From contig OZ038450.1 in NCBI GenBank assembly GCA_964036195.1, positions 9,550,701 to 9,614,700 on the forward strand: a stretch of DNA of 64,000 nt, read 5' to 3'. The stretch's first letter is position 1; each line of letters begins with the position of its first letter. The DNA comes from Sphaerolaimus hirsutus (lineage: Eukaryota; Nematoda; Chromadorea; Monhysterida; Sphaerolaimidae). The notes below the pieces were generated by a model. That model made no database searches, was not told the DNA's origin, and saw only the letters and a list, made by a program, of their open reading frames with translations. Below, piece after piece: positions 65 to 12,731 of the stretch. Both the position numbers and the translations under genes were made by a program.

Positions 65-3000
65 CACAAGCACCCGCGCGACATCCTGAAGCGCGAGTGC
101 ATCGGCGACGCGTCCGAGTCGGCCATCCTGAAGTACTGCGAGATGGCCAGGGGCAAGGTGATGCACACGCGCCAGGCTAATAAAAAAGTGGCCGAGATCC
201 CATTCAACTCAACCAACAAGTTTCAGGTTAGAAAAAGCAGCCAGGGAGTAGTATTGGCTCTCATCTCAGAATAATCGTGGTTATCGGCAACACGATTAAA
301 GGTATTTCGCGTTTTTTTGATGGCCGAAAGTTTTTTCAATCGGTTTTAAAAGATATGCATTGAAAAAACGGCAGTTAACTTTTTTAGTACTTCTTCACTA
401 GGTATTTAGAAATTTTTTTGTTTGAGTTCCATTCTGATTGAATTTTGAAAAAGATTTTATTCTGAAAAATGTCTTAAATACAGGGTTTTTTTAAACAGGG
501 TCGCTAAAAACTATCCATCGTTTTTCCATATGTGTGGTAATTACCAACTAAACAAATGCACTTAGGTAAACATGGACCTCCCTCGCAGATGTCCATACAC
601 GAGAAGGACGACAAGACCGGACACGTGTTGGTGCTCAAAGGGGCGCCCGAGCGCGTCTTGCAGATGTGCACCAGCATCAGGCACAACCACGAGGACAACG
701 AGCTGAACGAGGCCAACACGAAGGATTTTAACGAGGCCTACGAGGCTTTGGGCGGATCGGGAGAGCGAGTGTTGGGATTTTGCGACCTGGATCTGGACAC
801 TCAAGATTACCCCATTGGATACCAGTTTGACACAGAGAAAGTGAACTTTCCGCTGACTGGTCCGTTTGAGAAAAACGCACTCTGCTCTGTAGTGTTGGAA
901 AAACGCCAGAGTTTTGGCGCTGAGTCTCAAAAGCGCCATGGCGGTTTGCTCAGGTACAGAGACAAGCGCCAATGGCTCCAGAGTATTTAAGCGCCAATGG
1001 CGCCGACAGCGCCACGACGCTTTTCCATCACTACTGCGCTGTACTGAATATCTTAGGATAGACATTGTTCACAATCCATGATGATACAGTAACTGAAGCA
1101 GGATTGAAAGTAGTCCCACTTTCAGATCTGCGGTTCTGTGGTCTGATGTCACTGATCGACCCGCCCCGGCCGGCTGTACCGGACGCCGTGGACAAGTGCC
1201 GCGCTGCGGGAATCAAAGTAGTCATGGTGACGGGCGACCACCCGCTCACTGCCAAGGCCATCGCCAGGCAGGTGGGCATCATCGCGGAGGACAGCATGAC
1301 TATTGAGGAACTGGCCAAGGAGCGTAACGTGCCCGAGGAGGAAATCAACCCAGCGTGCGTATATTGCAGTTCTATGTTACCAAGCGTGAACATGTTTCTT
1401 ATTAGGATGACTGAATAAAACGAGGGTCTCCTTGAATGAATTTTGAACAGATCTTATGTCGACAGAAATCTTTTACATTTTATTTATTCAGTAACTCACA
1501 GCCGCGGGAAAGATTTCTGAATGGGGCAAGAAATACCCTGAGTCATGAATAACACCGTGTTCTGCTGACATTTCAGTGACGCGAAAGCGATCGTGGTGCA
1601 TGGAATGGATCTACGCTCTTGGAAACCAGAGGAGTTGGATGACGTCATTCACCATATACCGGTGCAACACACTTTTAATGGCCCACAATCTTCACAAAAA
1701 CGTATATCTCAGCGATGTGTTTGTCCGCAGGAGATCGTGTTCGCGCGCACGTCGCCGCAGCAGAAGCTGAGCATCGTGGAGGCGTTCCAGCGCATGGGCA
1801 AGATCGTGGCGGTCACCGGCGACGGCGTCAACGACTCCCCCGCCCTCAGACAGGCGAACATCGGTGAGCTAGCACGCCAGCGCTGCCCAGTTCATGTGCA
1901 TGTCTGGATGGCAATATGTAAATATGCCAGCCCTGAACACAGGCATCGCCATGGGCATCTCGGGCAGCGACGTGTCCAAGAAAGCAGCAGACATGGTGCT
2001 CACCGATGACAACTTTGCGTCCATCGTCATGGGCATTGAAGAAGGTAACGAAAAAATGCACTATGCAGATAGTGGTTCTTCCATTTTGTGGTAGCCTCGC
2101 CAACTATTTAGGAACACTGCAAGCTTCCACAGTGCAACGCAATTAACAGCCAGTAATTACATTTCTCCAGTGCTCAGTTCCGCAAGTTGCAAAGTTTAGA
2201 GTTAAGAGTAAATTTAAAAGTGAAATCAAAAGTAAAGTAAAATGATAAACGATAGTTCATAAAAAGTTAAAAATGAAGTATTTGCATGACTGCCAAAGAA
2301 TCCTAAACTTGATATTTTAACACAGGCCGCATAATTTTCGACAACCTGAAAAAGTCGATCGCCTACACGCTGACATCGAACATCCCTGAGATCGCACCGT
2401 TCCTGTGCTTCGTCACTTTCAACATGCCCCTGCCCCTGGGCACCATCGCCATCCTGTGCGTGGACATCGGCACGGACTTGTGGCCGGCCATCTCGCTCGC
2501 CTACGAGCAGGTGCCAGTCCCAAGACACTGTAAACTGCCCTGTAAAATGTCAAATGCAAAAATCGTGGAAAATGCCCTGAAAAATGGCAAGAGGGGTTGC
2601 CACTTTGCAGATTATTTTCTACGTCTTTTGACACTTTGCATGACAATAGACATTATATATGGCATTTTACAGGGTCTGGGACTGCACCCAGGCCGAATCG
2701 GACATCATGAAACGGAAGCCGCGCGACCCCACGCGAGATCGACTGGTGGGCGGCGTGCTGCTGACGTACAGCTACCTGCAGATCGGCATCATACAAGCGC
2801 TGGCCGGCTTCTTCACCTACTTCACGGTGATGGCGGGCAATGGCTTCCTGCCACACCGCTTGCTGGGCCTCAGAGTGGATTGGGACAACCCTAATAAAGA
2901 TGATGTGCAGGACAACTATGGGCAGCAATGGGTCAGTTTGGTTTCTGTTACCCCACATAATGTGTGCTAAGGCAAAATAAGCGTGCGGGATGAATATTTG

Positions 3001-10900: not shown

Positions 10901-12731
10901 GACATCATGAAACGGAAGCCGCGCGACCCCGTCCTTGACCACCTGGTGGCAGTCCCAGAGCCTGTAAAAGACCCTGTAAAGTGTAAAAGCCCCTGTAAAC
11001 TGTCATGTATTATGTAAAATACCCTGAAAAGTGTCAGGTGTCATGTAAATAAACCTGTAAAATGTCATGTGTCTAGTAAAAGACCCTATAAAGTTTCATG
11101 TATACTAATCGTATTGTATCATATCCAAATATTATGTTTTTGTGTTCAAAGCCTTTGTCCAAAAGTAAGATTTGGATAGGATACAATAAGATTGGGATAA
11201 ATACATACATGCTACTTTACAGGGTCTTTAACTTACTTTTGACACTTTACAGGGTTTTTTTACATAGCACATGACATTTGACAGGGTCTTTTACATGACA
11301 CATGACATTTTGCAGGGTGTTTTACACTTTACATAGCCTGGGACTGGGACTTTTACAAGGTCTGGGACTGCCCCCTGGTGGGCGGCAAGCTGCTCACCTA
11401 CAGCTACCTCCAGATCGGCCTGATGCAAGCGGCGGCCGGCTTCTTCACCTACTTCACGGTGATGGCGACGCACGGCTTCTTGCCGCACCGTTTGCTCGGC
11501 ATCCGCGTGGATTGGGACAACAGGAACATCGACGATTTAGAGGACAGTTATGGACAGCAATGGGTCAGTATGGTGGCGTCCGTGTGCAGCACGCTGCGCT
11601 GGTCCTGTGCCGGTAGACAAGACATGTAAACCCGTTCGGCATGTAGGTAAAATATAGTGAAATGGGTTTAACTATCTTAGATCCATAATAGCGATTTTAA
11701 TGTAAAAATTGACAGCATGGAATAAAAATTAACAATTTTGACTGAAACTTCAAACGAAAAGAATCGCTCAAAATTGACTCCACAGGGCTCGGGGTAAAGT
11801 AGCTGTAAAATTTACCTCGGGATAGATAGCTTAGCAGGCCGCCGGGATGGATAGATAGCTGGCAGATCCGCCCTCGATTGGACACCGCTGTACCGTGTCT
11901 ACATGTCGAGCGGGTTTACATGTCTAGGGAGCCTACATCCGCTGCGCTCGCATCACACATAAATACACACTGCATCGCAGCCTTACGAGAATCGCAAGGC
12001 GCTGGAGTTCACGTGCCACACGTCCTACTTCATAACGGTCGTGTGCGCCCAGTGGGCCGACGCGCTCATCTGCAAGACGCGGCGCAATTCGCTCAGCCAG
12101 CAGGGCATGACCAACTGCGCGCTCAACACCGGCATCCTGTTCGAGACTACCCTGGCCATAGTGATAGCCTATGTGCCCTATGTACCCAACTTGCTGCATC
12201 TATACGAAGTCAGGTCGGCTAATTGTGGAACATGCTAATTACGGATGTCTGGGTTGGGATCGGAAATGCCATCTGTTTGCTGCGGTTGCATCCCGTTTGA
12301 ACAGTGCTAAGAACACGCCTTACATTCACAAAGAATCACTTTGTGTTTTTCTTTTTGGGACCAGTTGACAAAAACTGTTTAATTGTTTGAGCACAAAAAT
12401 AAGCCTAAAATGTGTGTTTGTGAACATTTTCACGTCAGACTAAAAGTAAATGGTGAAGTTGTTAAATAAATATTCACAAAGCATAGCCAGCCCCAGAACC
12501 ACAACGAAGTTTCTCCACCCAAATTCTACATAAATATCAGAATATCCGAAACTCAATAAACCCCGCCCCCTATTCTAACCCAGCATTCAAATAACTACCA
12601 TAACCTACAGATTCTGGTGGTGGTTCTGCGGCATGCCGTTTTGCCTGCTCATCGTCGTGTACGACGAAATGCGGCGCGCTTTCATTCGCATGTACCCCGG
12701 CGGGTTTGTTGAGCGCAACACTTACTACTGA
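4924..12731 (+). CDS. Na+/K+-ATPase alpha subunit-like P-type ATPase, copy B (complete, one apparent frameshift)
   Basis: Eighteen exons: 4924-5001, 5239-5499, 5865-6112, 6377-6568, 7438-7656, 7964-8091, 8155-8296, 8366-8527, 8824-8985, 9281-9389, 9656-9884, 10148-10232, 10316-10448, 10508-10609, 10707-10945, 11378-11563 (or from 11360), 11981-12213, 12611-12731. They give 1009 aa, the usual family length. The start was chosen because [14 protein letters not shown] is the typical Lys-rich N-terminus. Landmarks: TM1 about 85-102, TM4 [13 protein letters not shown], catalytic D360 in [29 protein letters not shown] near 701-711, TM6 [11 protein letters not shown]-terminal TYY. Shared exons match copy A in length to the base. 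Oddities: exon 3 is one base short near 5941-5946, breaking the frame after codon ~140; the exon 15/16 intron lacks an AG at its expected end; the ouabain-site Gln is Glu103. The first donor (after 5001) is the least certain. Confidence 0.93.
5537..5795. mobile_element. GTTGACA-type inverted-repeat element in copy B intron 2
   Basis: Related to 6130-6330, 21625-21885 and 27280-27500: shared segments AATGTCAACTGAATGTCAAC, AAGCATCACAC and AGTTGACACGAATTTTGATA, ending at GTGTGTGGGCCC. Edges are approximate. Confidence 0.5.
6130..6332. mobile_element. GTTGACA-type element in copy B intron 3
   Basis: Begins CACACACGAGTTGACATCGC and ends GATGTCAACTAGCGTGTGTG. Same interior as the copies at 5537 and 21625. 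It fills most of the intron 6113-6376. Confidence 0.55.
6614..7293. mobile_element. GTTGACA-type element with a nested TA-flanked element, copy B intron 4
   Basis: GGCGGCCCACACACTGGTTG at the left and CAACTAGTGTGTGGGCCGCC at the right form the outer inverted repeat. Inside, TA|CCGTATTTCCTCGAAATAC (6719) to GAGGAAATACGG|TA (7173) is a second insertion with G/C-run rich arms. Confidence 0.7.
7695..7876 (+). mobile_element. Introner-family element inside an existing intron of copy B
   Basis: GTGGCAGTCCCAAGCCCTG at the left and CAGGGCTTGGGACTACCCC at the right, with CTG on both sides (7692-7694, 7877-7879). It sits within the intron 7657-7963, so it is not itself a splice unit. It supports CTG/CAG as the target and a 3-bp duplication. 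Confidence 0.75.
8545..8765. mobile_element. GTTGACA-type inverted-repeat element in copy B intron 8
   Basis: GGCGGCCTGCACCCTAGTTG to CAGTGTGTGGGCCGCC. Internal arms contain TTCGGCTTCACGTGTCGCAG and its inverse near 8690. Same family as 6614 and 55066. Confidence 0.65.
8986..9280 (+). mobile_element. Introner-type element forming an intron in copy B
   Basis: Begins GTGCCAGTCCCAGACCCTG and ends GGTCTGGGACTGCCCC + CAG. Copy A is uninterrupted: its exon 589-859 (271 bases) equals the 162 + 109 bases of the two copy B exons. The left exon ends in CTG while the right copy reads CAG, so a T-to-A change may have created the acceptor. The interior again carries the TCCAAATCT palindrome. Confidence 0.9.
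10946..11377 (+). mobile_element. Introner-type element in copy B exon 15/16, without a canonical acceptor
   Basis: Begins GTGGCAGTCCCAGAGCCTG and ends GGTCTGGGACTGCCCC + CTG. Copy A reads straight through (CGACTGGTGGGC near 2740). Exact removal restores the reading frame and length, but the end is TG, not AG. In-frame alternatives are an AG at 11358-11359, adding VWDCPL, or an AG just after 11378, deleting four residues. Confidence 0.85.

Follow-up and report, generated by a model that had tools for sequence, protein, structure and literature searches.

Fold-back transposon copies in the exons of a nematode Na+/K+-ATPase gene pair are probably removed as exact introns, ending in AG or TG

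How can a gene stay readable when a transposon has entered one of its exons, and must the intron that may result end in AG? These questions are raised by a stretch of 64,000 nucleotides (nt) from the nematode Sphaerolaimus hirsutus (assembly GCA_964036195.1, contig OZ038450.1, positions 9,550,701 to 9,614,700 of the forward strand; hereafter the window), in which a tandem pair of Na+/K+-ATPase alpha genes, copies A and B, carries at four sites an insert of 181 to 432 bases in one copy, with the exon unbroken in the paralogue. An initial annotation, made from the letters alone, had interpreted the four inserts as new introns generated by one transposon-like family, and both its coordinates and the exon length sums on which it relied prove exact.

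Both ATPase genes lie on the forward strand. Copy A is represented in the window by its 3′ exons (65..4203; exon model and open reading frame), while its first exons fall in one further stretch that was sampled upstream (locus L091), most of them matched by tblastn and free of stops. Copy B comprises 18 exons (4924..12731; exon model and phmmer) and matches solved Na+/K+-ATPase alpha chains with an E value of 0. The closest proteins among the matches listed share about 66% identity with copy A and about 61% with copy B. The interrupted exons add up to their unbroken counterparts: the A exon of 271 nt (589-859) equals 162+109 in B, 123+110 in A equals 233 in B (11981-12213), and 185+240 in A equals 239+186 in B, that is, 425. 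The exons at 1731-2044 (A) and 10316-10609 (B) are 100 and 98% identical between the copies (other exons 66-91%) and likely form a gene-conversion tract. Outside this tract the copies differ at synonymous and nonsynonymous sites by dS 0.63 and dN 0.12, so the duplication is not recent. The gain of the inserts after the gene duplication, also proposed in the initial annotation, agrees with the uninterrupted paralogous site at all four places. The other introns of both ATPase genes within the window, 23 of 23, are GT...CAG.

The inserts themselves, all read on the forward strand, consist of the element plus one copy of the target-site duplication (TSD). A1 (2511..2691) comprises an element at 2511-2688 and a right TSD CAG, with the left CAG at 2508-2510; A2 (3369..3607) an element at 3369-3604 and a right CAG, with the left CAG at 3366-3368; B1 (8986..9280) an element at 8986-9277 and a right CAG, with a left CTG at 8983-8985 aligned to Leu; and B2 (10946..11377) an element at 10946-11374 and a right CTG, with the left CTG at 10943-10945. 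The first three read GT-AG, and B2 reads GT-TG; a GT-AG form of B2 was sought in all nine registers giving the same product and occurs in none. At their outer ends the elements carry GTGSCAGTCCCA... on the upstream side and, on the downstream side, ...TGGGACTG followed by four bases that are mostly C, as in a fold-back element, and the terminal motif CTGGGACTGYMCCCWG, with up to two mismatches allowed, has 11 matches in the window against 0.06 expected, which bears out the single family. The earlier description of the intron as the element from end to end plus one target copy thus stands, except that A1 begins with GTGCCAGTCCCAA and not, as had been given, with ...CCCAG. In the ATPases of other animals (12 sequences displayed of 110 aligned) the four target codons face Lys, Glu or Thr (where A has Gln), Gln, Leu and Leu, and because they face these residues the left flanking copies are read as the original codons. 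The right CAG of B1 differs from its left CTG, so a T-to-A change in the duplicated base may have supplied its AG. G follows the CWG (CAG or CTG) at 4/4 ATPase sites (0.005). An insertion-phase bias was considered and set aside, as four of four in phase 0 gives only 0.09.

Is the family confined to this gene pair? A search of the whole genome for element ends, proposed in the initial annotation, gave 1303 + 1312 = 2,615 matches to a 23-base end pattern, GTGSCAGTCCCARNNCCTGTAAA, in 348,482,957 bases, and the reversed control of the same pattern gave 0 in the same genome; copies elsewhere behave similarly to those in the window. The combination of CTG with one form of the family end has 207 + 227 genome matches, and in view of the genome-wide results the idea of B2 as a unique defect was abandoned. 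A single exact end pattern was put to each of the viral and prokaryote collections and had no match in either. We sampled copies, all selected by their GTG end, on three contigs of 762. Set 1 consists of 90 loci covering 97 of 100 listed end-pattern places, all on contig C1, and provided, outside the window, 64 copies with both ends and 29 without a clear partner; set 2 consists of short stretches at 60 of 100 listed CTG-left places on contigs C1, C2 and C3, chosen for the left CTG, and provided 35 copies with both ends and 22 without, often perhaps owing to the short stretch. Exact duplicates were dropped, and some near-duplicates remain among the pairs L128/L129, L092/L093 and L110/L111.

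The TSDs of the 64 set 1 copies are CTG/CTG in 27, CAG/CAG in 18, CTG/CAG in five, CAG/CTG in two and other in 12, so that both flanks are CWG in 52/64 and identical in 45/64, in keeping with the CWG target duplication claimed earlier, with the reservation that these shares are somewhat inflated because the rule for choosing the partner end scored CWG and matching flanks; a first pass without that rule found identical CWG flanks in 13/27. The left CTG and right CAG seen in B1 recur in coding flanks (L083, L117, L107, L141, L145, L151), and among the set 2 copies that have CTG on the left and CWG on the right they occur in 5/13 coding and 4/19 other cases (counts only). Intron loss is common in general, and the four introns might accordingly be old and lost from the other copy. 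Such a history is extremely improbable, as it would require four separate exact losses, and each of the introns is a transposon copy with its target duplication, from a family dispersed in the genome.

Whether copies elsewhere also interrupt coding sequence can be judged from homology across the junction. Thirty-six junction peptides, picked mainly by the codon model described below and by eye, were put to Pfam, and E values of 0.01 or better were obtained for 14/32 sense and 0/4 antisense peptides. With the four window copies included, 17 exonic copies have homology, all of them in sense orientation. Seven end in AG, namely A1, A2, B1 and the copies in genes for a cyclin (L083), Oscp1 (b), a VWD protein (L042) and an AMP-binding protein (L117); ten end in TG, namely B2 and the copies in a GPCR (L067), Oscp1 (a), a permease (L084), BCKDHA (L082), IFT70 (L101), a T-box protein (L103), a calpain (L116), a kinase (L140) and ATR (L135). 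In set 1 and the window, which were not selected by TSD, there are six AG and five TG copies. The Oscp1 coding sequence (L027) harbours two exonic copies, one ending in AG and one in TG. Homology spans the GT...TG junctions of Oscp1 (E 8e-17), the permease (3e-10), BCKDHA (1.5e-13), the T-box protein (7e-8), IFT70 (2e-21), the kinase (5e-14) and ATR (9e-10), and for BCKDHA, T-box, IFT70 and ATR the alignment to solved structures runs through the junction free of gaps. For L101 Pfam gives weak TPR matches only (0.003), and the accepted match is to IFT70 in solved structures; the weaker matches of L042 (VWD, 0.0063), L067 (GPCR, 0.0009) and L116 (calpain, 0.0003) were kept and may be discounted. 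L077 (GPCR-like, E 0.0065) was dropped as a weak match. With GT at the start of 17/17 copies (which were sampled by that end) and AG at the end of 7/17, the exonic copies depart from the canonical U2 GT-AG pattern. The idea that the duplicated CAG supplies the AG, put forward in the initial annotation, is not supported as a rule, 10/17 copies ending in TG; among the four window inserts it applies directly to A1 and A2, and not to B1, with its left CTG, or to B2.

A codon model, with which we scored the junction on both strands after removal of the element in 99 copies outside the window, offers a further view of how the copies are removed. At a threshold of at least 14 bits it called 15 sense and three antisense of the 64 set 1 copies (p 0.0075) and 13 sense and no antisense of the 35 further CTG-left copies of set 2 (p 0.0002), giving 28 sense versus three antisense in both sets together; the sense:antisense counts are 19:5 and 16:0 for the two sets at 10 bits, and 12:1 and 13:0 at 18 bits. 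The sense orientation supports splicing from the GT of the element, as judged from sequence; inserted antisense at a CTG, a copy would end in CAG but start with GG. It also bears on the possibility that the elements are removed exactly from DNA, as ciliate internal eliminated sequences are, leaving a somatic genome without them. Such removal would account for an exact excision that leaves one target copy and does not depend on AG, but it should ignore orientation, contrary to the 28 versus three calls of the codon model, and the 17 copies kept for homology are all sense, though just four antisense peptides were tested; we regard it as very unlikely.

The same model discriminates among joins. 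Across the 99 copies exact excision gives 28 sense calls, whereas joins displaced by 1-2 nt or placed at inner splice signals give 5-10, a join at the internal AG gives six and retention of the element none. Among CTG-ending copies the calls are 19/53 for exact excision against 4-6 for shifted joins, five for the internal AG and none for retention; among CAG-ending copies they are 9/35 against 0 to 3 for the other joins and none for retention. Since the counts drop with a shifted join in both classes, exact removal restores the frame for TG and AG ends alike, and a terminal AG seems not to be needed. The TG copies might instead be spliced canonically at other AGs, gaining or losing codons, B2 for example at −18 with six in-frame residues added. 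In B2 a G-to-A change has indeed brought the internal AG to −18, in frame, in place of −19, and added codons are described for Aureococcus introners in the pertinent part of Gozashti et al. 2022 (PMC9860276). Against this, the AG at −19 in the other nine TG copies adds 3n+1 bases (GT at 0), the five internal-AG calls compare poorly with the 19 for exact excision, homology is unbroken across the exact junctions of BCKDHA, T-box, IFT70 and ATR, and the internal site of B2 is AAG where 23/23 older ATPase acceptors in the window have CAG. We consider canonical splicing at other AGs unlikely.

What, then, would define the splice point? An AG lies upstream of the end in 17/17 exonic copies, 19 nt from it within TTACAG in 16 and, in B2 (11358..11359, forward strand), 18 nt from it within TTACAAG. 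Predicted folds bring the element ends to within 4 to 15 steps of each other in all 17, compared with 6 to 65 steps for 22 older introns of the ATPase genes, none longer than 450 nt. The free energies of seven family copies in the window are 6.6 to 19 standard deviations below those of shuffled sequences. T occupies the second position of 6/7 upstream and 0/7 downstream ends of these seven copies (p 0.005), two intronic copies included, and the downstream ends mostly start with GG, so that an upstream GT seems to be characteristic of the family.

Considering the element ends, the duplications, the empty paralogous sites, the frame and homology across the junctions and the sense orientation, all of which are observed, the favoured reading is that NuwaI-like fold-back introners with a CWG target have entered exons and are probably removed exactly as introns, with no requirement for a terminal AG. 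A short non-autonomous fold-back DNA transposon would insert into an exon at CWG, and its exact removal, presumably by the spliceosome, would leave one CWG. The upstream end GTG, presumably derived from the GGG end type by a G-to-T change, would act as the 5′ splice site. Pairing of the arms would bring both ends close together, and the internal TTTACAG, which precedes the end by 18-19 nt, would fall within the stem or close to it. The internal AG may serve in early recognition of the 3′ splice site or in the first step, and the exons may be joined at the base of the hairpin, that is, at the end of the element, where the target duplication makes the junction AG or TG, so that AG at the junction would not be required. 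In humans, TG 3′ splice sites used for exon joining have an AG no more than 28 nt away, and the relevant passages of the study on these sites propose that an early step depends on the AG and that a choice is made later (PMC2374985); our proposal, with the inner AG being read first and joining occurring at the hairpin base, draws on these sites and on the AG found 18-19 nt upstream in all 17 copies. We are slightly inclined to the more general view that the whole family makes TG-ending introns as readily as AG-ending ones, the splice point being set by hairpin and target duplication, with the upstream AG used for the first step only, the GT required and a coding CTG as good as a CAG.

Several points weigh against the favoured reading. 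Training of the codon model used the two ATPase genes only (these were then left out of the scoring), three antisense calls remain, some of the sampled copies are near-duplicates, and for 18/32 sense junctions Pfam yields nothing at 0.01. When the flanks are included in the fold, the GT or the terminal dinucleotide is itself frequently predicted to be paired, and the internal AG of B2 is paired only in part; internal AG and hairpin, moreover, come with the terminal repeats, and selection for splicing need not lie behind them. The human TG, as far as the portions of the study concerned with it extend, is never the sole 3′ splice site and in every case serves as the alternative to an AG close by (PMC2374985). 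In copy B, exon 3 is one base short relative to copy A (5934-5951, near 5943), which is a frameshift or an assembly error, and among 328 conserved sites copy B alone departs at ten, copy A alone at two and both at 37 (p 0.04). Copy B may thus be decaying, and B2, taken alone, could belong to a gene on its way to being lost, in view of the frameshift and the 10/328 deviations. The inserts could likewise be unspliced, in null, heterozygous or pseudogene copies caught in the assembly, as the frameshift and the lack of a terminal AG in B2 would suggest. This, too, is improbable: the frame of copy A is open in the window once its two insertions are removed, its upstream exons are stop-free, its own departures amount to just the two of 328, and the family displays the sense bias and resides in conserved genes. 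The remainder of the 1009-codon frame of copy B is open when one N is placed in exon 3.

Further members of the family occur in apparently ordinary introns of the window, again on the forward strand. One (7695..7876; TSD CTG/CTG) lies in the intron 7657-7963 of copy B, and an EGF-like transmembrane gene carries one at 33016..33191 and, likewise in an ordinary intron, one at 33531..34049 with GGGG/AGGG ends and no GT end; removal of the introns rejoins an EGF-like domain in this gene (Pfam matches weak, below the cut-off). A bZIP-like gene has a degenerate copy (14862..14990) in one of its introns, and around 50300 there is a partial match. The end type CAAGCCCTG, represented by 7695-7876 and 33016-33191, lies mostly in AT-richer surroundings, as judged from the first 30 loci; most exonic copies belong to the end type CAGACCCTG, represented by A2, B1 and B2. 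Arms are 68-90% identical between copies and the inner repeats differ, because of which element similarity was rejected as a clock of age; the present activity of the family asserted in the initial annotation is not borne out by these arm identities. Other inverted-repeat elements, with GTTGACA-like arms as judged by eye, are found in introns of copy B (6131-6319, 6613-7293, 8579-8740). Rfam gave no match at the gathering score, and a Pfam search of ten other open reading frames of the window found no transposase, only one weak match (CBM64, 0.004). The neighbouring genes include the bZIP-like gene (14481-17080, forward strand; Pfam match below the cut-off, distant database matches, the closest among those listed at about 33% identity) and an ETS-domain gene (57122-57688, reverse strand; E 7e-35).

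If the favoured reading is true, the presence of one element at both CAG and CTG, within conserved genes of a single animal, would furnish a natural series in which the demands of the spliceosome at the 5′ end can be told apart from those at the 3′ end. A route from transposon to intron would emerge as well, in which a G-to-T change in the terminal repeat creates the donor, and the target duplication together with the hairpin creates the acceptor.

To which known elements, then, is the family comparable? PIF/Harbinger elements proper duplicate TWA, and such AT-rich duplications are not those of the family described here. On sequence grounds its copies look most like the animal NuwaI group. The sections of the pertinent study (PMC4482050) that deal with these groups attribute AT-rich duplications to PIF/Harbinger proper, and 5′-CWG-3′ duplications with terminal repeats usually beginning with GGG to NuwaI, a member of the PHIS superfamily present in animals. 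The Harbinger-like affinity suggested in the initial annotation can therefore be refined, since CWG duplications combined with GGG termini point to the NuwaI group and not to PIF/Harbinger proper; the CWG duplication is common to NuwaI and our family, whereas the upstream end of the copies sampled here begins with GTG. A literature search found no paper joining NuwaI with transposon and intron, and a single paper, on fungi, joining introner with Harbinger.

Introners are intron-forming, non-autonomous elements that resemble DNA transposons and carry inverted repeats and target duplications, and in the relevant part of the survey by Gozashti et al. 2022 (PMC9860276; 'Harbinger' is absent from its main text) only two groups among animals and land plants, both of them animals, have them. 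The copies studied here agree with introners in family similarity up to the splice borders, in insertion into an uninterrupted exon and in splice sites shared between element and target duplication; they differ in ending with AG or TG according to the target, the passages of that survey on splice sites reporting rare GC and GA 5′ sites and no TG 3′ ends. The introner elements of Amoebophrya, as characterised in parts of PMC7789003, are alike in their hairpin-forming inverted repeats joining the exon boundaries, direct repeats of 3-5 nt and non-canonical borders, but Amoebophrya is a protist with very variable splice motifs, whereas all 23 other ATPase introns in our window are GT-AG. The human TG sites resemble ours in having an AG nearby, here 18-19 nt upstream in 10/10 TG copies, and differ in that the human TG is described as an alternative site in the passages concerned (PMC2374985), while in our copies the reading frame favours TG as the principal site. 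Finally, terminal pairing and a hypothesised transposon origin are likewise reported, in the relevant sections, for the nonconventional introns of Euglena (PMC11170887), and introner transposons are named as a possible cause of the non-canonical introns of the tunicate Fritillaria, with sites outside GT-AG (PMC13326754); in contrast to both, the present case involves a single transposon family amid introns that are otherwise GT-AG.

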